Origin: a virus
Virus record (IMG/VR): IMGVR_UViG_3300043468_001827
Span: 1 to 53,543 of that record
Reading direction: 5' to 3' (one strand)
Length of the DNA stretch: 53,543 nt
Shown here: in pieces, positions 18,563 through 50,344 of the stretch
Layout of the letters: every line of letters begins with the position of its first letter
Position numbering within the stretch: the stretch's first letter is position 1
The notes under the pieces: model-generated
The model's input: the letters and a program-made list of their open reading frames with translations, nothing else
Database searches by the model: none
Told to the model about the DNA's origin: nothing
Translations under genes and position numbers: made by a program

Positions 18563-18829
18563 TTATTTTTTAGCGGACGATGCTACATTATGAGATTGTG
18601 CTGAAGCCGCAAATGCAACACAAATTAAATCATCACTCTTGGCATACGAACAACGGACAGATAGTGGGTCAATTCCCTTTGCTATCGCACCATCAATATT
18701 TCCTGCCATCAATGTTCTATCTTTAATGAAATAATACGACATACTTCCAACTGTGGTTAAAAGAATTAATGTCAAACAAATAACAAATGTCGAATCTAAC
18801 TTAATTAAATCTGATACCTTTGCGTTCAT
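18563..18829 (-). CDS. Small single-TM protein coupled to lysin (possible lysis partner)
   Basis: 88 residues from the ATG at 18829, chosen over a longer frame because it overlaps the lysin stop as ATGA and has AAAGGA upstream. One N-terminal membrane segment (~14-34, TFVICLTLILLTTVGSMSYYF), then a ~50-residue soluble part with two Cys. Topology and coupling to the SleB-like lysin suggest a holin, pinholin or inner spanin-like role, but I see no family motif. Confidence 0.55.
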   Translation of the reverse strand: MNAKVSDLIKLDSTFVICLTLILLTTVGSMSYYFIKDRTLMAGNIDGAIAKGIDPLSVRCSYAKSDDLICVAFAASAQSHNVASSAKK

Positions 18830-19380
18830 AGTTGTTTTAAGTCCTTTCTGTTGTAAAAAATGTGTCTGCCTATTACTGCTGTTTTTTCCATGTTTTTCCA
18901 TTTTGGACTCACATAATCTGCATGATAGAATAGAGCGCCGTGTGTTGGGTCCTCAATTCTTTCATAGTTAGCATAAACATATATCGCCAAATTTCTAATG
19001 TCATTATACAATGAATTGTTACTATTTGTCAAGACCTTACCTTGCGACATTGCCTTAGGTCTTTCTTCGCAGTACCATGAAAATTGGCAAACACCTGCCA
19101 TTTTTTGTTTTACGACACTACAAATATCGGATTCAAAGCGACTACTTTTTACACGATTGATGGTGACAAATGCTACGGCAACTTTACCTATATCAGGCTC
19201 GTGACCTGCTTCAAAGTAAATATTTTCCGCTAAACATTCAATTTCTTTTTTTGTATCTTCTGTTAAGTTGTTGTAATATGCTTTGTATGGCATACTTGGT
19301 CTTTCAAAATTTGCCATAGCAACACTAAAACTCAAAATCATAAATGCAACAACAGAGGTAATTAATATGCGAACCTGCAT
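18826..19380 (-). CDS. SleB-type cell wall hydrolase (endolysin)
   Basis: 184 residues. N-terminal signal sequence or signal anchor (~4-22, ILITSVVAFMILSFSVAMA). The mature part has the Hydrolase_2/SleB pattern: CLAENIYFEAGHEPDIGKVAV (Glu in ENIYFEA is the expected catalytic acid), VTINRVKS, then KMAGVCQFSWYCE and HGALFYHADYVSPKW. SleB enzymes are lytic transglycosylase-like glycan cleavers. Followed by a coupled single-TM gene; likely the lysis cassette. A signal-arrest-release mode is possible given the N-terminus. Confidence 0.85.
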   Translation of the reverse strand: MQVRILITSVVAFMILSFSVAMANFERPSMPYKAYYNNLTEDTKKEIECLAENIYFEAGHEPDIGKVAVAFVTINRVKSSRFESDICSVVKQKMAGVCQFSWYCEERPKAMSQGKVLTNSNNSLYNDIRNLAIYVYANYERIEDPTHGALFYHADYVSPKWKNMEKTAVIGRHIFYNRKDLKQL

Positions 19381-19400
19381 AATTCTCCTTAATTAGTTAA

Positions 19401-19428
19401 GGACCGCAGATGCTAAAATCCGCGGTCC
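19401..19428 (-). terminator. Intergenic hairpin upstream of the lysin gene
   Basis: 7-bp perfect stem GGACCGC/GCGGTCC, extended by GAT/ATC-type pairs, between the stop at 19438 and the lysin start at 19380. There is no U-run after it on the minus strand (TTAACTAATTAAGG follows), so it may be an mRNA processing or attenuation structure rather than a full terminator. Confidence 0.5.
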
Positions 19429-19437
19429 AATCCCGTA

Positions 19438-19716
19438 TCAGGTGGACTTTTTGCTAGTCTTTTCTTGTGTAGTATTGGGGATTTGTGAAACGAAGCCGTT
19501 TAGAATTTGCGCTTTGGCAATAATATCAGCTTCACTAGGATATGGAGGGAATCCTGGATGGGCCAGTATTTCACTTCCATGTATTTTCGCAACCTCACAC
19601 TTTGTAGCGTATTCGTTTGCGATTTGCTCACGCTTGCCGTAATAATCGGTTTCAAGCATACTCTGAGCCATTTTCAATAAATCCAGACGGATTTCAAAAG
19701 GTGTCATGTTTGACAT
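19438..19716 (-). CDS. Conserved marine-phage protein, unknown function
   Basis: 92 residues. Starts MSNMTPFEIRLDLLKMAQSML and contains KREQIANEYATK; this pattern (MTPFEIRLxLLKMA) is widespread in T4-like phages of marine bacteria. Mostly helical, with a Pro-rich HPGFPPYPSEADI centre. AGGAG lies 8 nt upstream of the ATG. First gene after the late-type promoter at 19763-19773 and a stem-loop leader. Confidence 0.7.
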   Translation of the reverse strand: MSNMTPFEIRLDLLKMAQSMLETDYYGKREQIANEYATKCEVAKIHGSEILAHPGFPPYPSEADIIAKAQILNGFVSQIPNTTQEKTSKKST

Positions 19717-21072: not shown

Positions 21073-21205
21073 AACTTTTCACTTTATCAATATTACGAAT
21101 ATCAGAGATTCTTTTTCTTTGTAACGAATTACCTAACCAACGAAATTTGGTACACAAGGTACACTTACAAACTCGTTTTGATTTTTTTCTTTTGTAATTT
21201 GCCAT
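21053..21205 (-). CDS. Small basic Cys-containing protein
   Basis: 50 residues from MANYKRKKSKRVCKCTLCTK (21205). The longer frame to 21256 would extend into the tmRNA gene and is rejected. KRVCKCTLCTKFRW could bind a metal. Very basic and probably nucleic-acid binding. Lies directly after the tmRNA coding piece. Confidence 0.55.
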   Translation of the reverse strand: MANYKRKKSKRVCKCTLCTKFRWLGNSLQRKRISDIRNIDKVKSYEDLHQ

Positions 21206-21209
21206 AGAA

Positions 21210-21582
21210 TTCTTGCAGAGTGATTGGGTAATAAGGTACACTCTGCGAAACCTCATCTATCCTTAAGCGGCTAGAGCAAATCTTTCGTCATTTGCGTTTA
21301 CTTTGTTTTGATTTTTACGCCTTGTCTGACGATTCTCCAGTTTTCTACTCATTGCCCTGTCGAGACCAGGTCACCCCCATCAAAAAAAGACATGAACCAA
21401 AATCAAAATTGTTAATAGTGTGATTACTATTACTTCATATGGTTTCAATCATATCTCCTTTTGGTGGAGGTGTCGGGAATCGAACCCGAGTCCAGAACAC
21501 CTTTCAATTACCTTCAACGAATTAGGTGTGATGGTCAGCTTTCGCTTTTGCTACCGAATACTCGGTTCGTACCACCACATAA
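21210..21582 (-). ncRNA. ssrA: Circularly permuted two-piece tmRNA
   Basis: On the minus strand the 3' tRNA half comes first and the 5' half second. Acceptor piece ~21578-21462: it opens with an 8-bp helix GTGGTGGT/ACCATCAC and ends with a T arm TCGGG-TTCGATT-CCCGA, then CACCTCC, A73 and CCA (21462). An 83-nt intervening segment follows. The coding piece starts at 21378 with GGGGGTG, which pairs with CACCTCC and includes a G3-U70 wobble, the alanine identity element. The D-like region is GACCTGGTCTCGACAGG. The tag frame 21295-21263 encodes ANDERFALAA then TAA. Rescues stalled ribosomes. The exact 3' end of the coding piece is uncertain. Confidence 0.9.
21263..21295 (-). other. tmRNA proteolysis tag reading frame (ANDERFALAA)
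   Basis: Ten codons GCA AAT GAC GAA AGA TTT and so on, then TAA, within the tmRNA coding piece. It ends in ALAA, the ClpXP/ClpAP degron. From memory this tag matches those of betaproteobacterial tmRNAs such as Bordetella/Ralstonia. It is not a free-standing protein gene. Confidence 0.85.
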
Positions 21583-36493: not shown

Positions 36494-36988
36494 TCACAGT
36501 TCTGGCTCAAATGCAGGCGGAGGTGCAGCTTTACCACCGAAACCTGTAACTACTGGTGCAGGTGCCGAAAATGTGGGTGCAGGCGAACCAAACGGACTTG
36601 TCGTTGGTGATACAGGTGTAAATGGTTTAGGTGCAGACACACTTGATGTGGTCGGAGAAGGACTTACAGTTGTAGGTCTTGTTGCCGCTTCAAGTGCTTT
36701 CATTCGTGCATCTTTGTCATTACCTGCTAACATGATACCAGAGAGAGTACCTGTTAAAAATGTGGCGATTGGAATAATCAACTCGAAGAATTTTTGGTCA
36801 ATTGGTGAAATCGCATTAAGAGGTTGTGTAACAAAAATTAGTGAATATAAAACAACAAATACAATGCCAAACAAGGTAAGTGCCAAACAAATACCAATGA
36901 AGAATTTTAGACGAGCCATTAACTGCTCTTCGGTATACATAAAACTCTCAGGTTGTTTTTCTTCTTTATTAAAAATATTTAAGTTCAT
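36494..36988 (-). CDS. Two-TM membrane protein with Pro-rich tail
   Basis: 164 residues from ATG 36988 (ATGA overlap with upstream stop). Membrane segments ~26-50 (KFFIGICLALTLFGIVFVVL) and ~67-88 (FFELIIPIATFLTGTLSGIM), then a soluble helix and ~70 residues rich in Pro/Ser/Thr. Two-TM small proteins with long tails include holins, but this tail is unusual. Last gene of a run of membrane and secreted proteins. Confidence 0.6.
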   Translation of the reverse strand: MNLNIFNKEEKQPESFMYTEEQLMARLKFFIGICLALTLFGIVFVVLYSLIFVTQPLNAISPIDQKFFELIIPIATFLTGTLSGIMLAGNDKDARMKALEAATRPTTVSPSPTTSSVSAPKPFTPVSPTTSPFGSPAPTFSAPAPVVTGFGGKAAPPPAFEPEL

Positions 36989-37263
36989 TTGCAATTCACT
37001 CCTGTTTGTGGTTGTGGTAGTTTTGATGTTGTTATTGGTGTTTCACCTTCTTTTGGAGGTCCAAGTCTTGGGTCTCTTTGACCTTTAAAAATATGTTCTG
37101 GACATGTTCTTGTTACATCACATGTTGGCAGTTTACAAATTTCTTTATCCCAATTTTTAGGGTCTTGGCAAGGATATCTAAATTGGTCTCCTGCAAAACA
37201 AGCTAATAATACAGGTAAAGCCAAAAGCAACGCTAACCATTTTATAAGTTTTTTATCATTCAT
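36985..37263 (-). CDS. Small Cys-rich lipoprotein
   Basis: 92 residues. Signal peptide with lipobox: KWLALLLALPVLLAC, cleavage before C22. The mature part has five more Cys (YPCQDPKNWDKEICKLPTCD, RTCPEHIF, C-terminal NCK) and a Pro-rich end. Outer-membrane or periplasmic lipoprotein; an outer spanin-like role is possible but unsupported. Confidence 0.6.
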   Translation of the reverse strand: MNDKKLIKWLALLLALPVLLACFAGDQFRYPCQDPKNWDKEICKLPTCDVTRTCPEHIFKGQRDPRLGPPKEGETPITTSKLPQPQTGVNCK

Positions 37264-37279
37264 TAATAAACACTCCTTA

Positions 37280-37753
37280 TTATTTTCCGGCTAATGGGTT
37301 GTCAATAGCCTTCTGGATTTTAGTATCAATCTCTTTTCTAAGATTACGAAGGTCTTGGTCGGTTTCACGAGCTAACTGTTTGTTATCTCTTTCGACTTGT
37401 TCAACCACTTTCTCTAAACGGCGAATGTCGTTTTTGAGGTCATTTTTAATATCACGGGTGTAGTCAGTTGTTTTTGTGGAATTTTCCTCAATCACCGCTA
37501 ACCTTTTATCAAATTCTGATAAATCTGGTGCAACATAGGTTGCAATTTTCTTTTGCATATCTTGGTATGATTTATATACCTCAAATGCTCCATACATGGT
37601 ACCAATTACTGATGAAACAATACCTACAGCAATCATTAGTTTGGCAGGAGTAAATTCATAACCACCAATACTGATAACAGTATCTTTGCTGGCATATTGT
37701 TTTACTGCGCCTTCTAATTTATCTACCTGTTTGTTTAGGTCCTTTTCTGACAT
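37280..37753 (-). CDS. Membrane-anchored coiled-coil protein, paralogue A
   Basis: 157 residues. SKDTVISIGGYEFTPAKLMI then a TM (~38-56, LMIAVGIVSSVIGTMYGAFE), followed by a long coiled coil to the C-terminus ending AIDNPLAGK. About half the residues match the gene immediately upstream (37762-38391), including IGGYEFTPAKLM and the terminal KAxDNPLxxx, so the pair arose by tandem duplication. Function unknown; membrane-tethered rod. Confidence 0.65.
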   Translation of the reverse strand: MSEKDLNKQVDKLEGAVKQYASKDTVISIGGYEFTPAKLMIAVGIVSSVIGTMYGAFEVYKSYQDMQKKIATYVAPDLSEFDKRLAVIEENSTKTTDYTRDIKNDLKNDIRRLEKVVEQVERDNKQLARETDQDLRNLRKEIDTKIQKAIDNPLAGK

Positions 37754-37761
37754 ATTTCTCC

Positions 37762-38391
37762 TTACTGATTGGACAACGGATTATCCAATGCCTTTTTAAT
37801 TTTATCATCAACCTCTCTACGCAATGCTCGAACTTCAGCAGTATTTTCTTTTTGATTTCTTACCATTTCAGAATTCATTTCTTTAATTGTCTGGTCGGAG
37901 TATCTACGAACTTCTTTCAAAGTGGCATCAACATCCTTTTTCATTTCTTTCATACTGTTATCAACTTCTTTTTTAATATCTTTTACTGTTGTATCGGTAC
38001 TGCGTTGGTCTGTCTTACTGCTTCTTTCAAGATTTTCAACAACATTTTCAATTCTACGGATATCACCTTTTAAATCATTCTTAATAGATTCAGAATATTC
38101 AGTCATCTTGTTTGAATTTGCCTCAATAACTTCCATCTTTTTATAGAGTTCCGACAAATCTGGACTGACATATTCGGCAATTTTTTGCTTCATACTCTGA
38201 TAGTCTTTGTATATTTCAAATGCTCCATATAAACCACCTAGTGTGGACGAAACAATTGTAAATGCAACCATTAGTTTAGCAGGAGTAAATTCATACCCAC
38301 CAATACTAATAACGGTATCTGCACTAGCATACTTTTTGGCTGCGGACTCTAAATCGTCAACCTTCTTATCTAAATTTTTTTCGTCTGACAT
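37762..38391 (-). CDS. Membrane-anchored coiled-coil protein, paralogue B
   Basis: 209 residues. Same build as its neighbour: SADTVISIGGYEFTPAKLMV, TM ~40-58, then a ~140-residue coiled coil with KDIKKEVDNSMKEMKKDVDA repeats, ending KKALDNPLSNQ. The coil is ~50 residues longer than paralogue A through internal repetition. Possible roles: spanin-like, injection channel or host envelope remodelling; none proven. Confidence 0.65.
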   Translation of the reverse strand: MSDEKNLDKKVDDLESAAKKYASADTVISIGGYEFTPAKLMVAFTIVSSTLGGLYGAFEIYKDYQSMKQKIAEYVSPDLSELYKKMEVIEANSNKMTEYSESIKNDLKGDIRRIENVVENLERSSKTDQRSTDTTVKDIKKEVDNSMKEMKKDVDATLKEVRRYSDQTIKEMNSEMVRNQKENTAEVRALRREVDDKIKKALDNPLSNQ

Positions 38392-38572: not shown

Positions 38573-40339
38573 TTACCTGTTATATTGAGAATTAATCAAC
38601 GCATCATGTCGTTGGTCACTAGGTCCAAACATTCCTCTACCCAAATTTCTATTATCAACATTTACTTGACCTTTATAGATTTGTTCAGTTTTATAAAAAG
38701 GTTTGTCAACCATTATTGTTCTACTGTATGCATCAAAACCGGGAACAAAAGACATTGCCTGAAGAACTACATTTTGAACTGCAATTTGTTGTTCTAATGA
38801 TGCAGACTTACCCATGTTCTCAGCAAGATTTTTTCCATCTTCAACTGCCTTTGATTTAGCGGCCGCTTCTCTTTTCTCTTGCATTTCTTGACGAGCAGTT
38901 TTTGGTTGGTCTTTAGAACCGGATTGTGAAGATGGTTCTTGTGAAGAACCAGATTTAGCATTATCTTGTTTTTCTTGTTTTCTTTCAGAAACGACTGCCG
39001 CTGATTGTTGTGCAGTTTGTTGACTACCACCACTTGGTTGCGTTAATTGAACTGGTGCAGCAGGTGAAGCCGCTGATGTTGTTGCAGTTGTTGGTGATGC
39101 AATTGCTTTATCGACATTACTATCACCTGTTTTTGAAACTGTTCCTTCTGAACTAACACTATTTGTTGGAGCGGTAGAAGCAATGACTCCTGCGGTTGCA
39201 ACTGTCGATGCGATACCTTGTTGTTCTAATACCATTTTCTGTGCATAAGCCTGTGCATAGTTTGGACATTGTTTATCATATAGTCCGTTTAAGTTACATT
39301 GTTGTGTAAAATAAGCGGCCGCATAACCTGGACATTCTGAATTGTATAGAGGATTTGCCGTGCATTGTTGATTGAAATATGCAGTTTGATAACCAGGACA
39401 ATTAACCGAATAAAGAGAATTTAATGAACATTGTTGATTAAAATATGCTTGTTGGTATCCTTCACATGTAGTTGAATAGAGTGGATTAATTGAACATTGG
39501 TATGTGAGATATGTGGCAGCATAACCAGGACAGTTTGGACTGTATAATGAACTAATTGAACATTGTTGAGTAAAGTATGCCGATTGATAACCTGGACAAG
39601 ATACATCATATAAAGAATTTGCTGAACACATAGCCTGAGTGTAACCAGAACATGTTGGTGAAGATAATGGGTTTGAAACACATTGGTCACCAGGCGTATT
39701 ATTAACAGACCAATTATTCAATACACCCGCAGGAATACCTGTGCCAAAATAAAACTTTTGCATTTGGCCAAGTGAAATATCACCACTAATACCTGCGGCA
39801 ACTTGTTGGTTTTGAATATTGATTAAATCATATGTTGCACCAATAAAACCTGTAGGACGAATCTCTAAACTAAAAGTGTTTAGATTATTCATATTACTAA
39901 TTTCTGCAATATTGTTCCAAAAATATTTCTGATATGTTGTGGTACCTTCGGTTCTAAATGTGGAACCTGCAACAGGATATAAATCTGTCCACAATGGTGC
40001 AATCATAAAATTGAACTGTGGTCCTAATTGTGGGTTATTTGGAACCAAATCTAAACCTTGACAACAATACGACCATTGGCCAGGGTTATATGGTTGATTT
40101 GGAATTGGTGCTAACGGGTCTAAAAACGAAACAACTCCATTTGAGTGCATCCAAGAGTTTGTAAATGTCCTACCGTAAAATGGAAAACCAAATTGAAGTG
40201 GAACATGCACATTTGTATCATCATAAAAAGTTGGATTAGTAATTACAGGTGATTGAGCATTAGAGTATGAGAATGAACAAAAGAATAGCACCACCAATGC
40301 CCCAAATTGACTTGCTATCTTTTTCAGGCTTCTGTTCAT
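38573..40339 (-). CDS. Secreted protein with NIDO-like domain and seven Cys repeats
   Basis: 588 residues. Signal peptide ~1-28 (FGALVVLFFCSFSYSNA-Q). Residues ~40-205 resemble the NIDO domain (FGFPFYGRTFTNSWMHSNGV then VSFLDP; APLWTDL). Residues 219-369 contain seven repeats of 22 residues with consensus C-x5-LY-x3-C-PGY-x2-AY-x2-QQ. The last 200 residues are Ser/Gln/Ala-rich with a helical end. NIDO domains are known from extracellular adhesion proteins. The phage makes this in the early/middle region, so it probably acts in the infected cell envelope or is a virion-associated adhesin. No frameshift seen. Confidence 0.7.
   Translation of the reverse strand: MNRSLKKIASQFGALVVLFFCSFSYSNAQSPVITNPTFYDDTNVHVPLQFGFPFYGRTFTNSWMHSNGVVSFLDPLAPIPNQPYNPGQWSYCCQGLDLVPNNPQLGPQFNFMIAPLWTDLYPVAGSTFRTEGTTTYQKYFWNNIAEISNMNNLNTFSLEIRPTGFIGATYDLINIQNQQVAAGISGDISLGQMQKFYFGTGIPAGVLNNWSVNNTPGDQCVSNPLSSPTCSGYTQAMCSANSLYDVSCPGYQSAYFTQQCSISSLYSPNCPGYAATYLTYQCSINPLYSTTCEGYQQAYFNQQCSLNSLYSVNCPGYQTAYFNQQCTANPLYNSECPGYAAAYFTQQCNLNGLYDKQCPNYAQAYAQKMVLEQQGIASTVATAGVIASTAPTNSVSSEGTVSKTGDSNVDKAIASPTTATTSAASPAAPVQLTQPSGGSQQTAQQSAAVVSERKQEKQDNAKSGSSQEPSSQSGSKDQPKTARQEMQEKREAAAKSKAVEDGKNLAENMGKSASLEQQIAVQNVVLQAMSFVPGFDAYSRTIMVDKPFYKTEQIYKGQVNVDNRNLGRGMFGPSDQRHDALINSQYNR
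39233..39685 (-). repeat. 66-bp (22-aa) Cys-rich tandem repeats, seven copies
   Basis: Repeat Cys positions at residues 219, 238, 260, 282, 304, 326 and 348 of the secreted protein; from 238 on the spacing is exactly 22. Each unit has a second Cys ten residues later followed by PGY (EGY, SGY or PNY variants). Copies are diverged at DNA level, so the array is old or under selection. Confidence 0.85.
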
Positions 40340-40342
40340 CTG

Positions 40343-40861
40343 TTACTTTAAAGTTTCGGTTGCTTTATCTAAATTCACAACGGGCGGGATTACTGCATAA
40401 TTGCCAATTGCTTTTTTATCCACATTATCTAAAACACCTCTTTTTCTCCATTCTTCTTTGGCCTGTTCGCCAATTTTACCTTCAACAGGACAAGGTGTTC
40501 CAGCCGCTAACATAGCAGCGAACACTCGTTCATCTTGACATAAGTTTGCAACAGCTGCAACTTTCATGCCCATGTCAAATAAGTTTTTGGAAAGTTTGAT
40601 TCTTTCGCAATTCATATCTCGCATCGTACCACCCATGGAGATACCAAGAATCTGCGTTTGAACTGCACCAGATGCCGCTACTGCACAAACATCGTTATTG
40701 ATGGTCGTAATAGCGGGCGCCACAGCAGTAGGTGGCGGAGACTTGATAGTAGTCTCGGAAGTTGAATTTGTGGTACTTCTACTTGTTGAATCTGTAACGA
40801 TGGGTTGAGCATGCGTTACACCAACCACAACCATTGCAATTGCGGCCAATAGGTATTTCAT
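40343..40861 (-). CDS. Secreted protein, unknown family
   Basis: 172 residues. Signal peptide KYLLAAIAMVVVGVTHA, then a Ser/Thr-rich linker (~20-45), then a domain with four Cys (NDVCAVAA, RDMNCERIK, ANLCQDE, GTPCPVEG) and C-terminal VIPPVVNLDKATETLK. A similar secreted protein is familiar from marine T4-like phages. First gene of the membrane/secreted operon; a late-type element at 40926-40936 and a repeated TATAAACCAC lie upstream. Confidence 0.6.
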   Translation of the reverse strand: MKYLLAAIAMVVVGVTHAQPIVTDSTSRSTTNSTSETTIKSPPPTAVAPAITTINNDVCAVAASGAVQTQILGISMGGTMRDMNCERIKLSKNLFDMGMKVAAVANLCQDERVFAAMLAAGTPCPVEGKIGEQAKEEWRKRGVLDNVDKKAIGNYAVIPPVVNLDKATETLK

Positions 40862-40892: not shown

Positions 40893-40936
40893 TATAAACC
40901 ACAGAAAAAATATAAACCACTAATATTCTATTTAGT
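40893..40936 (-). promoter_or_regulatory. Repeated GTGGTTTATA and late-type element upstream of secreted operon
   Basis: TATAAACCAC (plus strand) occurs at 40893-40902 and 40911-40920, 18 bp apart. Next to it ACTAAATAGAA (minus, 40936-40926) is one base off the late-type 11-mer seen before gp32. Together these form a plausible regulatory region for the secreted-protein operon. Confidence 0.4.
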
Positions 40937-40965: not shown

Positions 40966-41040
40966 TGGTGGGCCAGGTGTGAATTGAACACACACTCAAG
41001 CGATTATGAGTCGCCTGCTTTACCATTAAGCTACTGGCCC
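40966..41040 (-). tRNA. tRNA-Ile (CAT, lysidine type)
   Basis: Cloverleaf with 7-bp acceptor GGGCCAG/CTGGCCC and encoded CCA. Anticodon loop CTCATAA. The anticodon arm AGGCGACTCATAATCGCTTG equals that of E. coli tRNA-Ile2, so C34 is probably modified to lysidine to read AUA. Confidence 0.8.
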
Positions 41041-41058
41041 GAACTTGAATTGATTTGT

Positions 41059-41134
41059 TGGCCCGGCTGGCAGGAATCGAACCCACATCGGACGCTTTAG
41101 AAGAGCGTTGCCTTATCCATTAGACCACAGCCGG
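41059..41134 (-). tRNA. tRNA-Arg (TCT)
   Basis: Acceptor CCGGCTG/CAGCCGG, discriminator G, CCA encoded. Anticodon stem ACGCT/AGCGT with loop CTTCTAA. Reads AGA/AGG, rare in many hosts. Confidence 0.9.
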
Positions 41135-41139
41135 TTATT

Positions 41140-41220
41140 TGGTGCCCCTAATCGGATTCGAACCGATAGTTATGACACTCCTTTTGAGAGAGCCGCCTTT
41201 ACCAATTTGGCCATAGGGGC
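41140..41220 (-). tRNA. tRNA-Leu (CAA)
   Basis: Acceptor GCCCCTA/TAGGGGC. Anticodon loop CTCAAAA; the anticodon stem has two G-U pairs. Variable region is short for a leucine tRNA (~10 nt). Anticodon CAA reads UUG. Confidence 0.8.
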
Positions 41221-41225
41221 ATTAA

Positions 41226-41308
41226 TGGTGCGGATGGACGGAATCGAACCGTCAAGCCGAAGCGAGAGATTTTAAGTCTCTTGTGTTTACCTATTTCACC
41301 ACATCCGC
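41226..41308 (-). tRNA. tRNA-Leu (TAA)
   Basis: Acceptor GCGGATG/CATCCGC. Anticodon arm AGAGA-CTTAAAA-TCTCT, variable arm with a short stem, T loop TTCGATT, CCA encoded. Confidence 0.9.
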
Positions 41309-41318
41309 ATTGTATCGT

Positions 41319-41352
41319 ATTATATACAAAAACTATATGATTTGTATATAAT
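41319..41352. repeat. 12-bp perfect inverted repeat between two tRNA-Leu genes
   Basis: ATTATATACAAA (41319-41330) and TTTGTATATAAT (41341-41352) with a 10-nt loop. AT-only stem between tRNA-Leu(TAA) and tRNA-Leu(TAG). It could be a protein-binding site, a precursor processing structure or part of a promoter (it contains TATAAT on the minus strand). Confidence 0.7.
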
Positions 41353-41361
41353 GTGTTACAT

Positions 41362-41438
41362 TGGTACCCAAGGAGAGATTCGAACTCTCAAACTACGGCT
41401 TCTAAGACCGCCGACTTTACCAATTTGTCCACTCGGGC
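41362..41438 (-). tRNA. tRNA-Leu (TAG)
   Basis: Acceptor GCCCGAG/CTTGGGT with G-U pairs. Anticodon loop CTTAGAA, T loop TTCGAAT, CCA encoded. Reads CUN by extended wobble. Confidence 0.85.
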
Positions 41439-41443
41439 ATATT

Positions 41444-41519
41444 TGGTGCAACCTCCAAGAATCGAACTTGGTTCATCGGTTCTTCAAACCGCTGCTATAA
41501 CCACATCAGCTAAGGTTGC
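41444..41519 (-). tRNA. tRNA-Phe (GAA)
   Basis: Acceptor GCAACCT/AGGTTGC-like pairing, anticodon loop TTGAAGA, CCA encoded. The first anticodon-stem pair (G27-A43) is a mismatch. Confidence 0.85.
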
Positions 41520-41520
41520 A

Positions 41521-41595
41521 TGGTGCATCCTGATGGAATCGAACCACCGGTATCCGTCTTGTAAGGGCGGCGTTTTACCATTAAACTAAGGATGC
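41521..41595 (-). tRNA. tRNA-Val (TAC)
   Basis: Acceptor GCATCCT/AGGATGC, anticodon arm CCGCC-CTTACAA-GACGG with one C-A mismatch, T loop TTCGATT, CCA encoded. Confidence 0.87.
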
Positions 41596-41596
41596 G

Positions 41597-41670
41597 TGGG
41601 TTGAACCGGGGAATCGAACCCTCTCTACCTGTTTCACAGACAGGTGTGCGACCACTACACTAGGAACAAC
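41597..41670 (-). tRNA. tRNA-His (GTG), weakly paired
   Basis: Anticodon arm CCTGT-CTGTGAA-ACAGG is perfect. The acceptor (GTTGTTCC with GGTTCAAC, including the extra G-1:C73 pair typical of histidine) has two U-U mismatches, and the T stem has only three good pairs. CCA encoded. Either a tolerant phage tRNA or one in decay. Confidence 0.75.
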
Positions 41671-41676
41671 ATTGAT

Positions 41677-41750
41677 TGGAGCGGCTACTGAGAATCGAAC
41701 TCAGGACAGGAGATTGGAAATCTCCAGTTTTACCACTAAACTACAGCCGC
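41677..41750 (-). tRNA. tRNA-Gly (TCC)
   Basis: Acceptor GCGGCTG/TAGCCGC, discriminator U, anticodon arm GGAGA-TTTCCAA-TCTCC, CCA encoded. Confidence 0.9.
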
Positions 41751-41754
41751 AATT

Positions 41755-41828
41755 TGGAGCGGAATGTGAGAATCGAACTCACGACTAAACCTTGGCAAGG
41801 TTTCGTTTTACCATTAAACTAATCCCGC
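41755..41828 (-). tRNA. tRNA-Gly (GCC)
   Basis: Acceptor GCGGGAT with ATTCCGC, discriminator U, anticodon arm AAACC-TTGCCAA-GGTTT, CCA encoded. Its first ten bases overlap the 3' end of the protein gene at 41819-41983. Confidence 0.9.
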
Positions 41829-41983
41829 TTATTTTTTTCCTTAACTAAAGGGTTATCTTCAATACTCATATCATACAAACCGTGTTCTTGTGCAAAGTCT
41901 GTAAGTTTTTGCAAGGCATCAAGAACACAATCTTCGGTGGATAAAAAGTCCTGATAATCTGTTTTTTCTTTTTCTAGTTTCAT
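41819..41983 (-). CDS. Small acidic protein overlapping a tRNA (54 aa)
   Basis: 54 residues: KLEKEKTDYQDFLSTEDCVL, DALQKLTDFAQEHGLYDM, ending KEKNKRD. Start couples to the preceding gene by ATGA (41980-41983). The stop codon lies inside tRNA-Gly(GCC), so the last three codons and the tRNA 5' end share DNA. Role unknown. Confidence 0.6.
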   Translation of the reverse strand: MKLEKEKTDYQDFLSTEDCVLDALQKLTDFAQEHGLYDMSIEDNPLVKEKNKRD

Positions 41984-42450
41984 GCTACTTTTAATCCTTT
42001 CAATCTGTCTGCTGCATACGATGCCGCAAACGCTTCTGGTTTAACTAAAGGTATTACATTACATGTTCCACGAATGTAACCAATTGCTTCTTGAATCACA
42101 CAATTTGAACCATGCATTTCACTTGGGTTAATATCCAAATGAACTTCCACATATCTATTATCCAAAACATCCGCAAGTTTTAAATATAATTCGGAAACTT
42201 TGTAAACTTCATTCATTAATCTATATCTAGGTTTATTTTGTTTTTGGTCGTAGTCTCTTTCACGGACAACTTCACCAAATAATTTACAACCATTGTTACC
42301 ATTTATATGAACAACAATAGCGGTGATGTAATCTGCATACCAAACTTTATTTACCTTAATACGCTCTGAATCACAACCAATATAAATTTTGGTTTCAGGT
42401 GTTTGTGCTTCGATGAAAGATTTAACTTCCTCTAAGTCTAACTTACGCAT
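41980..42450 (-). CDS. RNase H-fold phage protein
   Basis: 156 residues. KIYIGCDSERIK and GEVVRERDYDQKQNKPRYRL, followed by EVHLDINPSEMHGSNCVIQE, match the RNase H-like family seen in phages and Bacillus (DUF458-type) with D/E/D ligands in the expected strands. Nuclease activity is plausible but unproven. Placed inside the tRNA array. Confidence 0.7.
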   Translation of the reverse strand: MRKLDLEEVKSFIEAQTPETKIYIGCDSERIKVNKVWYADYITAIVVHINGNNGCKLFGEVVRERDYDQKQNKPRYRLMNEVYKVSELYLKLADVLDNRYVEVHLDINPSEMHGSNCVIQEAIGYIRGTCNVIPLVKPEAFAASYAADRLKGLKVA

Positions 42451-42474
42451 GATTACTCACTTTCTTTTTAAAAT

Positions 42475-42548
42475 TGGCACCCCGCTAGGGACTCGAACCC
42501 CAACCAACGGTTTTGGAGACCGCTATGCTGCCATTACACCAGCGAGAT
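42475..42548 (-). tRNA. tRNA-Trp (CCA)
   Basis: Acceptor ATCTCGC/GCGGGGT, discriminator G, anticodon arm GCGGT-CTCCAAA-ACCGT, T loop TTCGAGT, CCA encoded. Confidence 0.88.
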
Positions 42549-42553
42549 ATGAA

Positions 42554-43012
42554 CTACTTTATTTCATTTACTTTTTTCTGTATTTCAGAATGTGGGACTT
42601 TTAAAAAAAATCCAGGACTTTTATTTCCTATGCCACTATCGTCAAAAAAATTATCAAATGAAATTCGGTATTTTCGAAAATCAACATCTACCGTTTTATA
42701 TGCTCCAATTGTAATTACATATTGTGGCATTTTTAAACCATTCTTTTGTTGATATTCTAAAACTTGTTTAACTGCAACTGCACCTAAACTGTAACCATAC
42801 AATTCATATTCACCTTGAATGTTTCGAATGTGTTTTAACGATTCATTTACTTTTAGTGAACTGAATATAATTGGTTTTAAATTTCTTTGTTTTGCATATT
42901 CTTTAAATGCAACTTCATCAAAAACTTCATTCTTACCACGAAAACCAATAATGTCATTTGCATGACATTGTAACGCATAAAAGAATAAAGATAAAAATAA
43001 AATTTTTTTCAT
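42554..43012 (-). CDS. Secreted alpha/beta-hydrolase-like protein
   Basis: 152 residues from KKILFLSLFFYALQCHA signal peptide (start 43012); upstream codons of the open frame would overlap tRNA-Ile. The centre has YELYGYSLGAVAVKQVLEY, a G-x-S-x-G nucleophile elbow, after a beta strand. No clear His/Asp partners identified, and it is short for a full hydrolase. Likely periplasmic esterase-like or a degenerate member. Confidence 0.6.
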   Translation of the reverse strand: MKKILFLSLFFYALQCHANDIIGFRGKNEVFDEVAFKEYAKQRNLKPIIFSSLKVNESLKHIRNIQGEYELYGYSLGAVAVKQVLEYQQKNGLKMPQYVITIGAYKTVDVDFRKYRISFDNFFDDSGIGNKSPGFFLKVPHSEIQKKVNEIK

Positions 43013-43024
43013 AATAGTAATTTT

Positions 43025-43099
43025 TGGTAGCCATGGACAATTTCGAAATGTCGACCTATCGCTTATCAAGCGATTGCTCTTCCTCTGAGCTACACGGCT
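43025..43099 (-). tRNA. tRNA-Ile (GAT)
   Basis: Acceptor AGCCGTG/CATGGCT, anticodon arm ATCGC-TTGATAA-GCGAT, T loop TTCGAAA, CCA encoded. Confidence 0.9.
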
Positions 43100-43160
43100 A
43101 AAACTTTCTTAAATACAACCACAATAGAAACATAATGAAAATAACTGGAATAATAGCCAT
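43098..43160 (-). CDS. Possible 20-aa membrane peptide
   Basis: MAIIPVIFIMFLLWLYLRKF, preceded by AAAGGAAAAAACATA. It fills the space between tRNA-Arg(ACG) and tRNA-Ile(GAT) and its stop overlaps the tRNA-Ile 5' end by two bases. Very short, could be chance. Confidence 0.3.
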   Translation of the reverse strand: MAIIPVIFIMFLLWLYLRKF

Positions 43161-43178
43161 TATGTTTTTTCCTTTAAT

Positions 43179-43255
43179 TGGCACGCCGTGAAAGATTCAA
43201 ACTCTCAACCTTAGGGTCCGTAGCCCTACGCTCTATTCAATTGAGCTAACGGCGT
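43179..43255 (-). tRNA. tRNA-Arg (ACG)
   Basis: Acceptor ACGCCGT/ACGGCGT, discriminator G, anticodon arm TAGGG-CTACGGA-CCCTA, CCA encoded. Needs host TadA to convert A34 to inosine. Confidence 0.9.
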
Positions 43256-43261
43256 ATTGAT

Positions 43262-43335
43262 TGGTGGAGGATGAGAGAATCGAACTCTCAATCTCGGCTT
43301 GCAAAGCCGATGTTATCCCATTTAACTAATCCCCC
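43262..43335 (-). tRNA. tRNA-Ala (TGC)
   Basis: Acceptor GGGGGAT/ATCCTCC with the G3-U70 alanine identity pair, anticodon arm TCGGC-TTTGCAA-GCCGA, CCA encoded. Confidence 0.92.
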
Positions 43336-43536
43336 AAAAAGTTGTAAGCTACGATTTCCACATCGCCCCTACATGAGTTGCACACCCTGTCACCATGTTT
43401 TGTTTCCTCAGTAGTTATGGTTCTACTCAGCGGTTCGAGCTCCCTATGTTGGTGGGCACCTTTCTTAACGGTTGACCGCCCCCGGTTATTGTCGCATAAC
43501 GAGCGGCAGTAATATCGCTTACTGCGGACGGGATTT

Positions 43537-43539
<3 letters not shown>
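43326..43539 (-). pseudogene. GC-rich spacer with headless reading frame (structured spacer E0)
   Basis: Between the CCA of tRNA-Pro and the 5' end of tRNA-Ala. One minus frame is open throughout and looks like real protein (VRSKRYYCRSLCDNNRG, then RELEPLSRTITTEETKHGDR, VCNSCRGDVEIVAYNFLGD) but has no ATG, GTG or TTG before its C-terminal part. The DNA shares CGTCCGCAGTAAG, same frame, with 24302-24494. It also holds a 7-bp hairpin GCAGTAA/TTACTGC, and its ends pair weakly (CCAAAA/TTTTGG) like the other tRNA spacers. Confidence 0.45.
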
Positions 43540-43613
<74 letters not shown>

Positions 43614-43620
43614 ATGAAAT

Positions 43621-43696
43621 TGGTGCTGGAGAAAGGATTCGAACCCTCGACCGCCTGATTACAAATCAGGAGCTCTACCAACTGAGCTACTCCAGC
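43621..43696 (-). tRNA. tRNA-Thr (TGT)
   Basis: Acceptor GCTGGAG/CTCCAGC, anticodon arm CCTGA-TTTGTAA-TCAGG, T loop TTCGAAT, CCA encoded. Confidence 0.92.
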
Positions 43697-43702
43697 ATTG
43701 AT

Positions 43703-43778
43703 TGGCTGTCTAGGCAGGGCTCGAACCTGCGACCAAATGATTAACAGTCATCTACTCTACCAACTGAGCTACTAGACA
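43703..43778 (-). tRNA. tRNA-Asn (GTT)
   Basis: Acceptor TGTCTAG/CTAGACA, discriminator G, anticodon loop CTGTTAA, T loop TTCGAGC, CCA encoded. Confidence 0.92.
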
Positions 43779-43785
43779 ATAAAAC

Positions 43786-43859
43786 TGGTTGCGGGTGATG
43801 GAATCGAACCACCATCTGAAGCTTATGAGACTTCTGAATTACCGTTACTCTAACCCGCT
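43786..43859 (-). tRNA. tRNA-Met (CAT), initiator-like
   Basis: Anticodon loop CTCATAA. The acceptor pairs only at 2-7 (GCGGGT/ACCCGC); position 1 (A) faces A72, an unpaired end that is the key initiator feature. 5' AGCGGGTTAGAG also resembles initiator tRNA. But the anticodon stem GAAGT/GCTTC lacks the three G-C pairs of classical initiators. Confidence 0.8.
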
Positions 43860-43866
43860 ATAAACT

Positions 43867-43941
43867 TGGCGACCCGTAGGAGAATCGAACTCCTATATTC
43901 CGCTAGACAGGCGGATATAATAACCACTATATGAACGGGCC
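43867..43941 (-). tRNA. tRNA-Asp (GTC)
   Basis: Acceptor GGCCCGT/ACGGGTC, discriminator G, anticodon arm TCCGC-CTGTCTA-GCGGA, CCA encoded. Its first two bases belong to the inverted repeat of spacer E1. Confidence 0.92.
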
Positions 43942-44026
43942 AATATAGAAACACATTCTTGGATTCTCGTAAAAGTAATCCATGACGCCGGCCGTCATTA
44001 TGTGTTTGAATGTGTTTTTATATTGG
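43940..44026 (-). ncRNA. Structured tRNA spacer E1 (three-way junction)
   Basis: Terminal arms 43940-43958 and 44008-44026 pair over 19 bp with one mismatch (plus CCAATATAGAAACACATTC with GAATGTGTTTTTATATTGG). Inside are two hairpins: ATGACG/CGTCAT with a GC-rich loop, and GGATT/AATCC. The outer arms include the CCA of tRNA-Lys and the first bases of tRNA-Asp, so the element joins the two tRNAs in the precursor. A 23-codon open frame lies within it. Confidence 0.65.
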
Positions 44027-44098
44027 TAGGTGCGGAGAATTTCGAAATCTCGACTTACCGGTTAAAAGCCGGTTACTCTGCCTCTGAGTTACACACCT
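44024..44098 (-). tRNA. tRNA-Lys (TTT)
   Basis: Acceptor AGGTGTG/CGCACCT, anticodon arm ACCGG-CTTTTAA-CCGGT, T loop TTCGAAA, CCA encoded and overlapping spacer E1. Confidence 0.92.
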
Positions 44099-44100
44099 TC

Positions 44101-44176
44101 TGGTGGTGATGGAAGGAATCGAGCCTTCGACCTTTTGCGTATGAAGCAACTGTTCTACCGACTGAACTACATCACC
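44101..44176 (-). tRNA. tRNA-Met (CAT), elongator-like
   Basis: Acceptor GGTGATG/CATCACC fully paired, anticodon loop TTCATAC, T loop CTCGATT, CCA encoded. Paired 1:72 suggests elongator. Confidence 0.88.
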
Positions 44177-44348
44177 ATAATTGAGAATACTGCCGTCCGT
44201 TTAAGACTATAAAATCGTCCCTATATTCTCATCCTAAACCCACCACAGGTTTCTTCCTCGGATAATGAGGTGGACTAATACAGGTTGGTACACCCTCGGC
44301 AGTCAGGTAGATGGTTAGTCGTCCTTGCTTTCGGATTCTCAATTATGG
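44175..44348 (-). ncRNA. Structured tRNA spacer E2
   Basis: Perfect 14-bp terminal arms CCATAATTGAGAAT (44175-44188) and ATTCTCAATTATGG (44335-44348) enclose ~146 nt. A second internal helix ACTGCCG/CGGCAGT lies just inside. The arms take in the CCA of tRNA-Tyr and the first bases of tRNA-Met. GC content is higher than neighbouring protein genes. No convincing protein frame. Confidence 0.65.
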
Positions 44349-44431
44349 TGGGTGCCCTAGGATTTGAACCTAGAAGGCCGAAACAACGGATTTACAGTCC
44401 GCCCCCGATACCATTACGGGACTAGACACCC
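44346..44431 (-). tRNA. tRNA-Tyr (GTA)
   Basis: Class II tRNA: acceptor GGGTGTC/GGCACCC, anticodon arm GCGGA-CTGTAAA-TCCGT, long variable arm, T loop TTCAAAT, CCA encoded. Confidence 0.92.
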
Positions 44432-44607
44432 AAAATTCAGAGCACTAAAGCGAAAGACTGCTATTACATGATGCCGAAGCGGTACTAACGCATCAAACCT
44501 TTGCTCAACTCATTTCTGAGACGGTCGTGCATGCCGTTTAGAACGGCCCGTTTTATTATTATGATATAATCTACCAAGCATATTGTGCTTGTATCACAGT
44601 TAGTTAT
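44432..44607 (-). other. Structured spacer E5 between E3 and tRNA-Tyr
   Basis: GC-rich 176 nt without a tRNA. Hairpins: CAAGCA/TGCTTG, TGATGC/GCATCA with an inner CGCTTCGGC-type loop, and a GGCCGTT/AACGGC stem. A 15-codon frame (MHDRLRNELSKGLMR) is present, without a clear ribosome site. No outer inverted repeat abutting tRNA-Tyr was found, unlike E1-E4. Confidence 0.4.
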
Positions 44608-44757
44608 ACCATATCAAAGTGTTATCTACCAATTTGTGAACAATGTAGCTAACACTCACAAGCGAATAGCGGTTATATCAGGACCTTTTCCTCGCACAGT
44701 TAGGCCCGCATAGTCATGGCGTCCCATGACGATACCCTGATAACACTTTGATATGGT
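44608..44757 (-). ncRNA. Structured tRNA spacer E3
   Basis: Perfect 19-bp terminal arms (ACCATATCAAAGTGTTATC at 44608-44626; its complement at 44739-44757). The upper arm begins with the ACCA end of tRNA-Glu. The interior has a GTCATGG/CCATGAC hairpin and GC-rich segments. A 23-codon frame (MGRHDYAGLTVRGKG...) occurs inside. Confidence 0.68.
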
Positions 44758-44829
44758 ACACCTAGGGGGAATCGAACCCGCCGTTTATGCCTTGAAAGGG
44801 CATCGTCCTAACCGTTAGACGATAGGTGC
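44754..44829 (-). tRNA. tRNA-Glu (TTC)
   Basis: Acceptor GCACCTA/TAGGTGT, anticodon arm ATGCC-CTTTCAA-GGCAT, T loop TTCGATT, CCA encoded and overlapping spacer E3. First tRNA after the promoter at 44863-44890. Confidence 0.92.
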
Positions 44830-44834
44830 AAAAT

Positions 44835-44857
44835 CAATTCAAATTTTTAATGAACAA
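44835..44857 (-). promoter_or_regulatory. boxA-like leader element 2
   Basis: Minus TTGTTCATTAAAAATTTGAA then TTG, 21 of 23 bases equal to the element at 45361-45383. It starts right after the expected transcription start and precedes tRNA-Glu. It resembles rRNA boxA (TGCTCTTTAACA type), the NusB/S10 antitermination site. Confidence 0.55.
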
Positions 44858-44862
44858 TACGA

Positions 44863-44890
44863 ATTATACACTAACTGGCCGAACTGTCAA
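44863..44890 (-). promoter_or_regulatory. Sigma70-like promoter of the tRNA group
   Basis: Minus TTGACA, 16 bp beginning GTTCGGCC, TATAAT. Drives tRNA-Glu and downstream tRNAs. Confidence 0.82.
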
Positions 44891-44897
44891 GTCTGTT

Positions 44898-44915
44898 TGT
44901 TGCCAGATTACAACA
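44898..44915 (-). repeat. TGTTG-N8-CAACA hairpin
   Basis: Same 18-nt format as at five other promoters (loop CCAGATTA on plus), 7 nt upstream of the -35. Confidence 0.75.
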
Positions 44916-44941
44916 CTACTTTTGTTTTCAATTTACTAACA

Positions 44942-45018
44942 TGGAGTGGGTGACAGGATTCGAACCTGCATAATACGGATTTGCAATCCGCTACCTCGCC
45001 TTTCAGTTGCACACCCAC
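44942..45018 (-). tRNA. tRNA-Cys (GCA)
   Basis: Acceptor GTGGGTG with CACCCAC, discriminator U, anticodon arm GCGGA-TTGCAAA-TCCGT, T loop TTCGAAT, CCA encoded. Confidence 0.9.
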
Positions 45019-45023
45019 ATATT

Positions 45024-45111
45024 TGGCGGAAGATATCAGAATCGAACTGATCCACCCATTTCTGAATGACGGTTTAGCAAACCGCTGCCTTAACCACTCG
45101 GCCAATCTTCC
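45024..45111 (-). tRNA. tRNA-Ser (GCT)
   Basis: Class II with long variable arm; acceptor GGAAGAT/ATCTTCC, anticodon arm GCGGT-TTGCTAA-ACCGT, CCA encoded. Confidence 0.92.
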
Positions 45112-45190
45112 ATATTAAAACACACTATCTCTCTTTATTGTCGGAGCCCACGGTGAAGAACTCGCTCCTCGATAATGTGTTTTGATATGG
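45110..45190 (-). ncRNA. Structured tRNA spacer E4
   Basis: 15-bp terminal arms with one G-U (CCATATTAAAACACA at 45110-45124; TGTGTTTTGATATGG at 45176-45190), including the CCA of tRNA-Ser(TGA) and the first bases of tRNA-Ser(GCT). Inside is a long hairpin based on GGAGC/GCTCC. Confidence 0.65.
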
Positions 45191-45277
45191 CGGAAGCGGT
45201 GAGATTCGAACTCACGGAACATTTCTGTTCGCTAGTTTTCAAGACTAGTGCCATAAACCGGACTCGGCCACACTTCC
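45188..45277 (-). tRNA. tRNA-Ser (TGA)
   Basis: Class II; acceptor GGAAGTG with CGCTTCC, anticodon arm CTAGT-CTTGAAA-ACTAG, long variable arm, T loop TTCGAAT, CCA encoded. Confidence 0.92.
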
Positions 45278-45280
45278 ATT

Positions 45281-45354
45281 TGGCAGGCGCATCAGGGCTC
45301 GAACCTGAAATAACGGATTCAAAGTCCGCTGTGTTACCATTACACTATGCGCCA
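45281..45354 (-). tRNA. tRNA-Gln (TTG)
   Basis: Anticodon arm GCGGA-CTTTGAA-TCCGT, T loop TTCGAGC, CCA encoded, discriminator G. Acceptor pairs at 2-7 with a U1-U72 mismatch; weak 1:72 pairing is normal for glutamine tRNAs. Confidence 0.9.
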
Positions 45355-48692: not shown

Positions 48693-48716
48693 GACTGTTG
48701 CAGGAAAACAACAGTC
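48693..48716 (-). repeat. TGTTG-N8-CAACA hairpin (extended)
   Basis: GACTGTTG/CAACAGTC, 8 bp, loop CAGGAAAA on plus. It sits between the stop at 48716 and the promoter; its outer edge touches the stop codon. Confidence 0.78.
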
Positions 48717-49672
48717 TAGGAAGTGCATCCTATCGAAGCGGAAAGAGATTGTATTCCTGACAACTTCCGAGGATCGACCTCAACTGTTATCTCTCTTTTA
48801 ACTTTGTACCAGTCAATTGTGAAAACATTCTTATGCTCAATATTTTCGCAAAGACCTAATTCATGGATTTTGATATAGGTTGGTTGAAACATGTATTCAT
48901 TCAACATTGACCGAAATTTTGGACTGTGTGTGTAAATGTAAACTCGGTTCTCAAAAAGTCCAGTAGGTCCCCATTGAATGTAAACCATACCTTCGGCGGT
49001 TTTCTCATCGCCATCTTTTTCAAGTCTTTCAAGGAATCGAAACAACTCCTTTTTGAATTCTTTATTCCATTTCACTTCGTAATTTATCGCCAAATACACC
49101 TTATCAGAGGTTGATGGCACAACTTTAACTTCCTGAATTTCAACTTCAAGACCAGATTGCCGAATTTGCGAAAGGTAGTATTGTGACACCTTTTCTCTTT
49201 GAATAAGAGTATTTTTTGCCGTTTGATGTTTTGCCAATAAGTCATTACCATTCACCTGTCTCGTTTGTGATTCACCTTGTAGTTTTCTCATAAACTTCAA
49301 AGGCGACACTTTGGCGGTAATCGTGCAACGAATCACTTTATCTTTTTGGCAAGTATCAATCTTATACGAATTGACAACACCTGAAGAATAACTTGCAACC
49401 AGATTCCGAATCACTCGGTCGTTTTGAACAGTTTGGTCAGATATCACTAAGACACCGACCGCCTTTTGTACCGCAGAATTAAGTGCCGTTTCAATTGCAA
49501 TCGTTTGGGTTTCTCCGATACCTTTGGCAGTAACCGTGATTTCTTCAGGCACCGATTCACTCATCGAAAAATAGATGCCTTGAAAAATCAATGAAACATA
49601 ATCAAAAGGTGTAAACGATTGTGCTGATACGGAGGATGTCCATAACAGACATCCAATCAGGAGATTCCTCAT
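48716..49672 (-). CDS. Secreted LPP20/FlgT-like protein
   Basis: 318 residues. Signal peptide RNLLIGCLLWTSSVSA. ITVTAKGIGETQTIAIETAL then NSAVQKAVGVLV is the pattern of LPP20/FlgT-type N-terminal domains, followed by a TITAKV strand. The C-terminal 150 residues are not recognised. Such domains occur in bacterial envelope and flagellar proteins. Last gene of a three-gene envelope operon. Looks acquired from a bacterium. Confidence 0.62.
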   Translation of the reverse strand: MRNLLIGCLLWTSSVSAQSFTPFDYVSLIFQGIYFSMSESVPEEITVTAKGIGETQTIAIETALNSAVQKAVGVLVISDQTVQNDRVIRNLVASYSSGVVNSYKIDTCQKDKVIRCTITAKVSPLKFMRKLQGESQTRQVNGNDLLAKHQTAKNTLIQREKVSQYYLSQIRQSGLEVEIQEVKVVPSTSDKVYLAINYEVKWNKEFKKELFRFLERLEKDGDEKTAEGMVYIQWGPTGLFENRVYIYTHSPKFRSMLNEYMFQPTYIKIHELGLCENIEHKNVFTIDWYKVKREITVEVDPRKLSGIQSLSASIGCTS

Positions 49673-49800
49673 TTAGATTTGGAACTTGATAACTTCTCTT
49701 TTGTCCAATCGGCGGTGCTTGTAATGTCTTTACCCATTCCAGAGATTGTACCACAAGCAGCCAATGACAATGTTAATATGATTGTAATTACAGTTTTCAT
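49669..49800 (-). CDS. Entericidin-like lipoprotein (43 aa)
   Basis: 43 residues. Signal peptide with lipobox VITIILTLSLAAC (cleavage before C16). The mature start CGTISGMGKDITSTADWTKE follows the entericidin A/B pattern (C-N-T-x-x-G-x-G-x-D-I). Entericidins are tiny outer-membrane lipoproteins of Gram-negatives linked to a stationary-phase bacteriolysis system. Coupled to the gene at 48716-49672 by ATGA. An unusual cargo for a phage. Confidence 0.72.
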   Translation of the reverse strand: MKTVITIILTLSLAACGTISGMGKDITSTADWTKEKLSSSKSK

Positions 49801-49801
49801 T

Positions 49802-50344
49802 TTAGTTTCCCATCAAAGCACGAACTTGGTTTGCCGTTGCGATATCTCTTACACTTGTCTTTACGACCACCAGAACCGTTTTGGTTTCTTTGTCAAAAGA
49901 CTTCGAATCGATATACACACCTTTGAGTATTCCTTTTTGCTTGGTACGAATATCTTCTTGCACATTCGACACAATCTTGGAATTCATCTCATTGTTTGAT
50001 TGACCACCGATAGTTTGACCTTCTTGTAGAGAATCAAATACCGTTTTCTTAAATCGTTCTGATTCAAGTTCATTTTTCATAAACTCGACCACTTTTTGTT
50101 GCGCTCGAAGCTTGGCAATGAGAAACGCTTCTTCTTGTCCAGATGGCAGAGTATTGGTCATTCGAGCCGAACCAGATGCGGTCATTGATTCAAATTGTCC
50201 GTCTTTGTTATAGGTGATTTTAATCTCACCACCCATAAACTCGGCGGTTACCGAATCGGCCTTTTCGACACGCTTATCACCAAACGATGAACACGCACTT
50301 AGTAATACTACCGCAGAAACTACTGCAAGTTTTTTTACAAACAT
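49802..50344 (-). CDS. Lipoprotein, LPP20-like
   Basis: 180 residues. Lipobox at LAVVSAVVLLSAC (C18). MTASGSARMTNTLPSGQEEA and FLIAKLRAQQKVVEFM resemble LPP20-like repeats of envelope lipoproteins; the middle continues with NEMNSKIVSNVQEDIRTKQK. Likely outer-membrane anchored. First gene of the operon; promoter at 50380-50408. Confidence 0.65.
   Translation of the reverse strand: MFVKKLAVVSAVVLLSACSSFGDKRVEKADSVTAEFMGGEIKITYNKDGQFESMTASGSARMTNTLPSGQEEAFLIAKLRAQQKVVEFMKNELESERFKKTVFDSLQEGQTIGGQSNNEMNSKIVSNVQEDIRTKQKGILKGVYIDSKSFDKETKTVLVVVKTSVRDIATANQVRALMGN

Follow-up and report, generated by a model that had tools for sequence, protein, structure and literature searches.

The window analyzed here comprises a 53,543-nucleotide stretch of viral DNA (IMG/VR record IMGVR_UViG_3300043468_001827, positions 1 to 53,543). 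At its center of interest lies an intact, single open reading frame (ORF) with an ATG start, designated gene B, which is flanked on the same strand by gene A and by two C-type genes (Table 1). Iterated profiles of the adjoining genes showed that B does not occur by itself, and it is thus no isolated adhesin. Downstream of B, the two C genes are followed by a small Cys-rich protein of the 'RYPCQDPKNW' family and then by a hydrophobic membrane protein.

Table 1. Features of the A-B-C operon and its surroundings, in window coordinates.
Feature	Position	Strand	Basis or remark
CTAAATA, late-promoter-like variant upstream of gene A	40929..40935	-	at -74
Gene A, 172 aa, exported, S/T/N-rich segment and four-Cys helical domain, phrog_20531	40343..40861	-	
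Gene B, reported ORF, 588 aa	38573..40339	-	signal peptide, head, Cys-repeat stalk, disordered linker, conserved C-terminus
B signal peptide, residues 1-29, AxA-type site between SNA and QS	40253..40339	-	by eye, hydropathy, helix 3-22 in model
B beta-sandwich head, residues 30-212, NIDO-like motif order	39704..40252	-	pLDDT mostly >90; no Pfam or PDB family
B seven Cys repeats, residues 220-369, predicted helix-plus-loop solenoid	39233..39682	-	model and repeat count
B disordered Ser/Thr/Lys-rich linker, residues 376-480	38900..39214	-	pLDDT <50
B conserved C-terminal segment, residues 515-588 (VPGFDAY...FYK..IY..Q.NVDN.R...SQY)	38576..38797	-	relatives and profile comparison
Small single-TM ORF, 55 aa, between B and C1	38402..38569	-	hydropathy
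Gene C1, 209 aa, one TM, coiled coil, C-terminal DNPLSNQ	37762..38391	-	
Gene C2, 157 aa, paralogue of C1, C-terminal DNPLAGK	37280..37753	-	
Small membrane-anchored or exported Cys-rich protein, 'RYPCQDPKNW' family	36985..37263	-	LLAC lipobox not conserved
Hydrophobic membrane protein, phrog_25359, overlaps preceding gene	36494..36994	-	holin-like by hydropathy only

The product of gene B is an exported head-stalk-tail protein that matches no Pfam, PHROG or PDB family. Judged by eye and by hydropathy, its N-terminus, MNRSLKKIASQFGALVVLFFCSFSYSNA followed by QS, looks like a Sec signal peptide whose site is S-N-A, in agreement with a preliminary description of this DNA. An AlphaFold2 model built on a 29-sequence family alignment shows a confident beta-sandwich head (residues 30–212, pLDDT mostly >90) and a confident repeat solenoid (219–373), followed by a disordered linker (376–480), helices (482–540) and a low-confidence end. 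The signal, the Cys repeats and this model together support the view, already put forward in that description, of an exported, disulfide-rich protein with a beta-rich head.

The head had also been called NIDO-like, and less of this assignment could be retained. The order of its motifs (FG..F..S...SNG.V.F ... P.WTDL ...) and its beta-sandwich fold do recall nidogen-type proteins; however, none of 29 family members matches NIDO in Pfam at E<=1, and PDB profile and fold searches with B (Foldseek, VIA) returned no convincing relative among the matches listed. Structure prediction thus bears out a beta-sandwich and a solenoid but leads to no convincing PDB fold match, and NIDO remains a resemblance of motif order only, as read from the sequence. 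When BFVD was searched with B, two proteins from uncultured phages aligned over most of their length, and we take both to be members of the B family; matches confined to the head were an S-SRM01 protein (286 aa) and a TerB_like protein (793 aa).

Between residues 220 and 369, B contains seven units of the form C-x4-[LIMVF]-[YSFH]-x3-C-x2-[YFW], whereas 5000 shuffles of the protein each gave at most one. The expectation of seven exact 22-residue repeats held for the number of units and, in six of them, for the length; the first spans only 18 residues, and the copies are not identical. The motif itself had been given as C-x5-LY but reads C-x4-LY-x3-CPGY-x2-AY-x2-QQ, with one residue fewer before LY. 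Mean identity between units is 50% at the amino acid level and 55% at the nucleotide level, a divergence indicating that the repeat array is old and has been kept by selection. Across relatives, 408 units were counted, and 328 of 348 spacings are exactly 22 residues.

A single scan of IMG/VR for metagenomic relatives of B recovered 62 loci, in which the repeats are retained at 3–14 per protein. The proteins share a fixed chassis consisting of a signal, a head, the repeats, a low-complexity linker and a conserved C-terminus (VPGFDAY...D..FYKP..IY..Q.NVDN.R...LFG..D.LH.EMV.SQY). The head, on the other hand, varies: among 63 ORFs it is NIDO-like (N) in 25, jelly-roll-like (J) in 21, a double jelly-roll-like type (JJ) in eight and a JN tandem in three, while the other six have no head call and were apparently truncated where a contig or assembly ends. 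A tree built from the C-terminal segment shows six changes of head type (6–8 in bootstraps), of which the strongly supported branches require just one; heads thus appear to have been swapped on an unchanging base. Neither the Cys repeat of 22 residues nor the pair of interchangeable heads belongs to a protein family named in Pfam or PHROGs.

Wherever all three genes are present, they occur in the order A-B-C on one strand (49 of 49 loci), with a median gap of -4 between A and B, where overlap is common, and of 1 between B and C; where A or C is missing, the locus appears to be truncated at a contig end. Across the family, A is exported and combines an S/T/N-rich stretch with a domain containing four invariant Cys residues; its structural model is of low confidence (mean pLDDT 55.9). 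C has one transmembrane (TM) helix near the N-terminus, a coiled coil, and NP[LM] at the extreme C-terminus in 67 of 71 copies, the other four being truncated by contig ends. No enzymatic domain was found in A, B or C. The operon had been described as one of membrane-anchored coiled coils and lipoproteins; the coiled coils are borne out by these 49 loci, but the lipoproteins are not, as the LLAC box of the small Cys-rich protein is absent from most of its homologues. With its lipobox Cys not conserved, this protein was also dropped as a candidate lipoprotein of the o-spanin type.

Direct searches of deposited phage and plasmid collections with B returned nothing, and a GTDB scan yielded only two contigs, both probably phage; the bridge from the window to deposited phages came instead through gene A. 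By this route, the cassette was located in HTVC115P, HTVC023P, HTVC202P, HTVC033P, Mosig and Baldr, phages of SAR11, a bacterium abundant in the ocean, in the Roseobacter phages CRP-207 and CRP-810, and in three uncultured phages (ctXG6705, ct7L0027 and AP013540). In each, A is followed by an exported protein and then by a C-type protein ending in NPL or NPM, with one small gene between A and B in Baldr and three between B and C in HTVC115P. Pelagiphage B proteins match the window family in the C-terminal segment (hhalign E 6e-6), and their heads match the family's jelly-roll heads by profile (E 6e-11). The middle proteins of the Roseobacter type are shorter and were counted by their position in the cassette, not by homology to B. 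Gene B thus stands in the middle of a hitherto unnamed cassette of three genes that very different aquatic phages have in common. The entry OQ414636.1, named Baldr EXVC032P, bears the locus tags of another phage (EXVC031PHodr).

Several of these cassettes lie among lysis or packaging genes. In Mosig, the next gene upstream of A encodes a PF11351 holin scoring above the cut-off; in HTVC023P, a peptidase M15 gene directly follows C; in HTVC033P, an amidase-like 'lysozyme' lies upstream; and in ctXG6705, a hydrophobic holin-like ORF and a lysozyme come after the cassette. The cassette stands just before the terminase genes in HTVC202P, Baldr and AP013540, in the last of these between the tail-fibre genes and TerL. 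In T7, the spanin genes 18.5/18.7 map just before the TerL gene 19. A hydropathy and lipobox scan of the annotated proteins of three complete genomes (HTVC202P, AP013540 and ctXG6705) found no lipoprotein. Besides A-B-C, HTVC115P carries a TM-coil gene and a small exported gene (8842–9409) in the terminase/lysis gene region, resembling the pair that HTVC019P, which has no A-B-C, carries at this locus (18974–19548); this pair is a candidate for another spanin-like system.

Evidence on timing comes from the DNA upstream of A. The core of the T4-type late promoter, ATAAATA, is the top enriched heptamer there, occurring in 25 of 48 regions where 5.2 were expected. Among unique loci it precedes A in 21 of 41, compared with 17 of 145 control ORFs, namely those with free upstream DNA in the same loci (Fisher p 3e-7). 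The window itself has the CTAAATA variant upstream of A, and because this variant also precedes the ssb gene, the timing evidence for the window alone is weak. The window does not contain the exact T4 late motif TATAAATA (0 versus 4.2 expected) and has 5 copies of ATAAATA where 20 would be expected, as though the core of the late promoter were being avoided; the claim of late expression therefore rests on the relatives. Superinfection blocking, suggested in the preliminary description, found no specific support, and the late-promoter motif upstream of the operon argues for late expression; if the operon is indeed late, the contrast drawn there with T4-like early genes is beside the point.

Of the known systems, two-component spanins (lambda Rz/Rz1, T4 PseT.3/PseT.2 and T7 18.5/18.7) are similar in several respects: judged by sequence, which leaves the orientation (N-in or N-out) aside, C has the i-spanin layout, and the A-B-C genes overlap and lie near a holin, endolysin or terminase gene in several phages. 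They differ in that the exported A and B are not lipoproteins, the proteins number three rather than two, and B, a very large protein, carries a folded head and a Cys-repeat rod. Nor is there a convincing match in sequence: against spanin PHROGs, C reached only marginal values, with coiled-coil matches at E 0.0028 (the best) and 0.0067, from one member in each case. A lipoprotein partner was looked for and not found: the B signal ends in SNA before QS, A of the window has no lipobox, and LLAC in the product of 36985–37263 is not conserved. For this reason, A-B-C falls outside the definition of two-component spanins, and what follows draws on spanins by analogy.

Jelly-roll carbohydrate-binding heads are annotated in pelagiphages (HTVC033P gp45 and AP013540); these proteins share the operon position, the J-type head and a homologous C-terminus, whereas B of the window has a NIDO-like head, and its Cys-repeat stalk replaces a long acidic linker. 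Phage curli/type VIII secretion genes likewise concern the envelope in phages of the same hosts, and A has S/T/N-rich stretches; the pelagiphage curli module is reported to comprise HK, CsgF, CsgG, CsgA/B, FecR and AC (PMC9599517). A-B-C is nevertheless a separate cassette, and A, B and C of the window have no Pfam or PHROG match to CsgG, CsgF or CsgA. The DUF2730 releasin (Mu gp25, PMC9239132) resembles C in having one N-terminal TM helix, a helical tail and a lysis neighborhood, and C of AP013540 is annotated as DUF2730; the invariant terminal NPL of C and the fixed gene order set A-B-C apart. The DUF2730 assignment was dropped, given that C of AP013540 matched no Pfam family at E<=0.1 and DUF2730 was not among the families listed for A4.

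The cassette probably works on the host envelope at a late stage of infection, most likely when the cell bursts. More specifically, we tentatively propose, with somewhat less than even confidence, that A, B and C form a late, lysis-associated, spanin-like bridge that joins the layers of the host envelope and helps to open the cell. Of the readings that unite late timing, export, the coiled coil and fixed end of C, the conserved end of B and the lysis neighbors, it is the simplest. What it builds on has been observed: the architecture, the order of the genes, the exchange of heads, the late-promoter motif and the conserved ends of B and C. C would be anchored through its one TM helix in the inner membrane, its coiled coil reaching into the periplasm and ending in the invariant NPL motif. 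B would be exported, fold with disulfides, and dock through its conserved C-terminus on C and/or A, the latter serving as an exported four-Cys partner. The disordered linker and Cys-repeat rod of B would span the periplasm, and its exchangeable head may take the place of the lipid anchor found in a classical o-spanin by binding a host-specific ligand in the outer layer, be it peptidoglycan, LPS or an outer-membrane protein.

We infer this topology, along with the contacts, the ligand and the role in lysis. An i-spanin consists of an N-terminal TM helix, a coiled coil and a C-terminal interaction end, and it is at the C-termini that spanin subunits interact (PMC6139136); in B and C, too, the conserved end is the C-terminal one. 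Several findings speak against a bridge. No member is known to function in lysis, and the marginal spanin matches of C and the window's own CTAAATA, shared with the ssb gene, also weigh against it. B and most A proteins have no lipobox, T4-like loci show no endolysin as a recurrent neighbor, and the endolysin-like gene of the window (18826–19380) sits 20 kb away. The large, swappable head exceeds what a spanin needs, and the extra pair in HTVC115P implies that A-B-C need not be the sole spanin-like system.

B may instead be exported and presented on the surface of the infected cell, tethered by A and C, where the head binds or masks a surface ligand. Such display might block superinfection, stop progeny from re-adsorbing to debris, or aggregate cells, and we regard it as possible though on the unlikely side. 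Exchangeable heads on a constant chassis (N 25, J 21, JJ 8, JN 3) do resemble the outcome of ligand-specific selection, deposited relatives are annotated as carbohydrate-binding, and pelagiphage curli secretion genes, for which roles in aggregation or against superinfection have been proposed, offer a precedent (PMC9599517). The well-supported branches, however, force one head change only; the cassette encodes neither an outer-membrane pore nor a lipid anchor, leaving the route to the surface unexplained, as are the lysis neighbors, and the late-promoter motif fits early exclusion poorly. A late motif would suit a virion component, and a variable head over a conserved end also resembles receptor-binding proteins, with the head of a fibre or decoration protein contacting the receptor and the conserved C-terminus attaching to the particle; in CRP-810 and AP013540, moreover, the cassette lies near structural genes. 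Yet A and B carry N-terminal signal peptides throughout, including in HTVC115P once its start is corrected, and their partner C is membrane-anchored. Assembly of tailed-phage virions takes place in the cytoplasm, and repeats with two Cys per 22 residues would form no disulfides there; this option is quite improbable. Export and disulfides would suit a non-lytic modifier of the cell wall or periplasm which, over a long infection, would preserve the envelope or change uptake, and exported disulfide-rich proteins do occur here beside other envelope proteins of the window (an exported protein at 48716–49672 and a lipoprotein at 49802–50344). Such remodelling is nonetheless improbable, as A, B and C have no enzymatic domain and the motif upstream of A is of the late type.

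The spanin-like bridge can be extended to a broader, more speculative proposal, which we hold to be unlikely as it stands: that A-B-C is an envelope-bridging machine of three parts, so far unrecognized yet widespread among aquatic phages, whose head, specific for a host envelope ligand and set on a disulfide-stacked rod, replaces the spanin lipid anchor. If true, outer-membrane disruption would be tuned to the host. In a survey of 677 phages, 91 yielded no spanin (PMC6139136), and no description of how SAR11 phages open their unusual hosts was found in the literature searched.

Other features of the window were recorded alongside the operon. A possible second lysis spot lies at 18563–19380 (-), where an exported endolysin-like protein (phrog_938) is overlapped by a small single-TM ORF. 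At 48716–50344 (-), an exported protein (318 aa) adjoins a lipoprotein (180 aa, LSAC box); by eye this is possibly CsgG/LPP20-like, but there is no Pfam match. Immediately upstream of the operon, 40966–45354 (-) contains 26 tRNA genes that together serve most amino acids. Finally, a permuted tmRNA is encoded at 21172–21572 (-), with the tag ANDERFALAA according to ARAGORN and Rfam scores above gathering for both beta_tmRNA (128.6 bits) and tmRNA_permuted (127.1 bits), suggesting a betaproteobacterial host.
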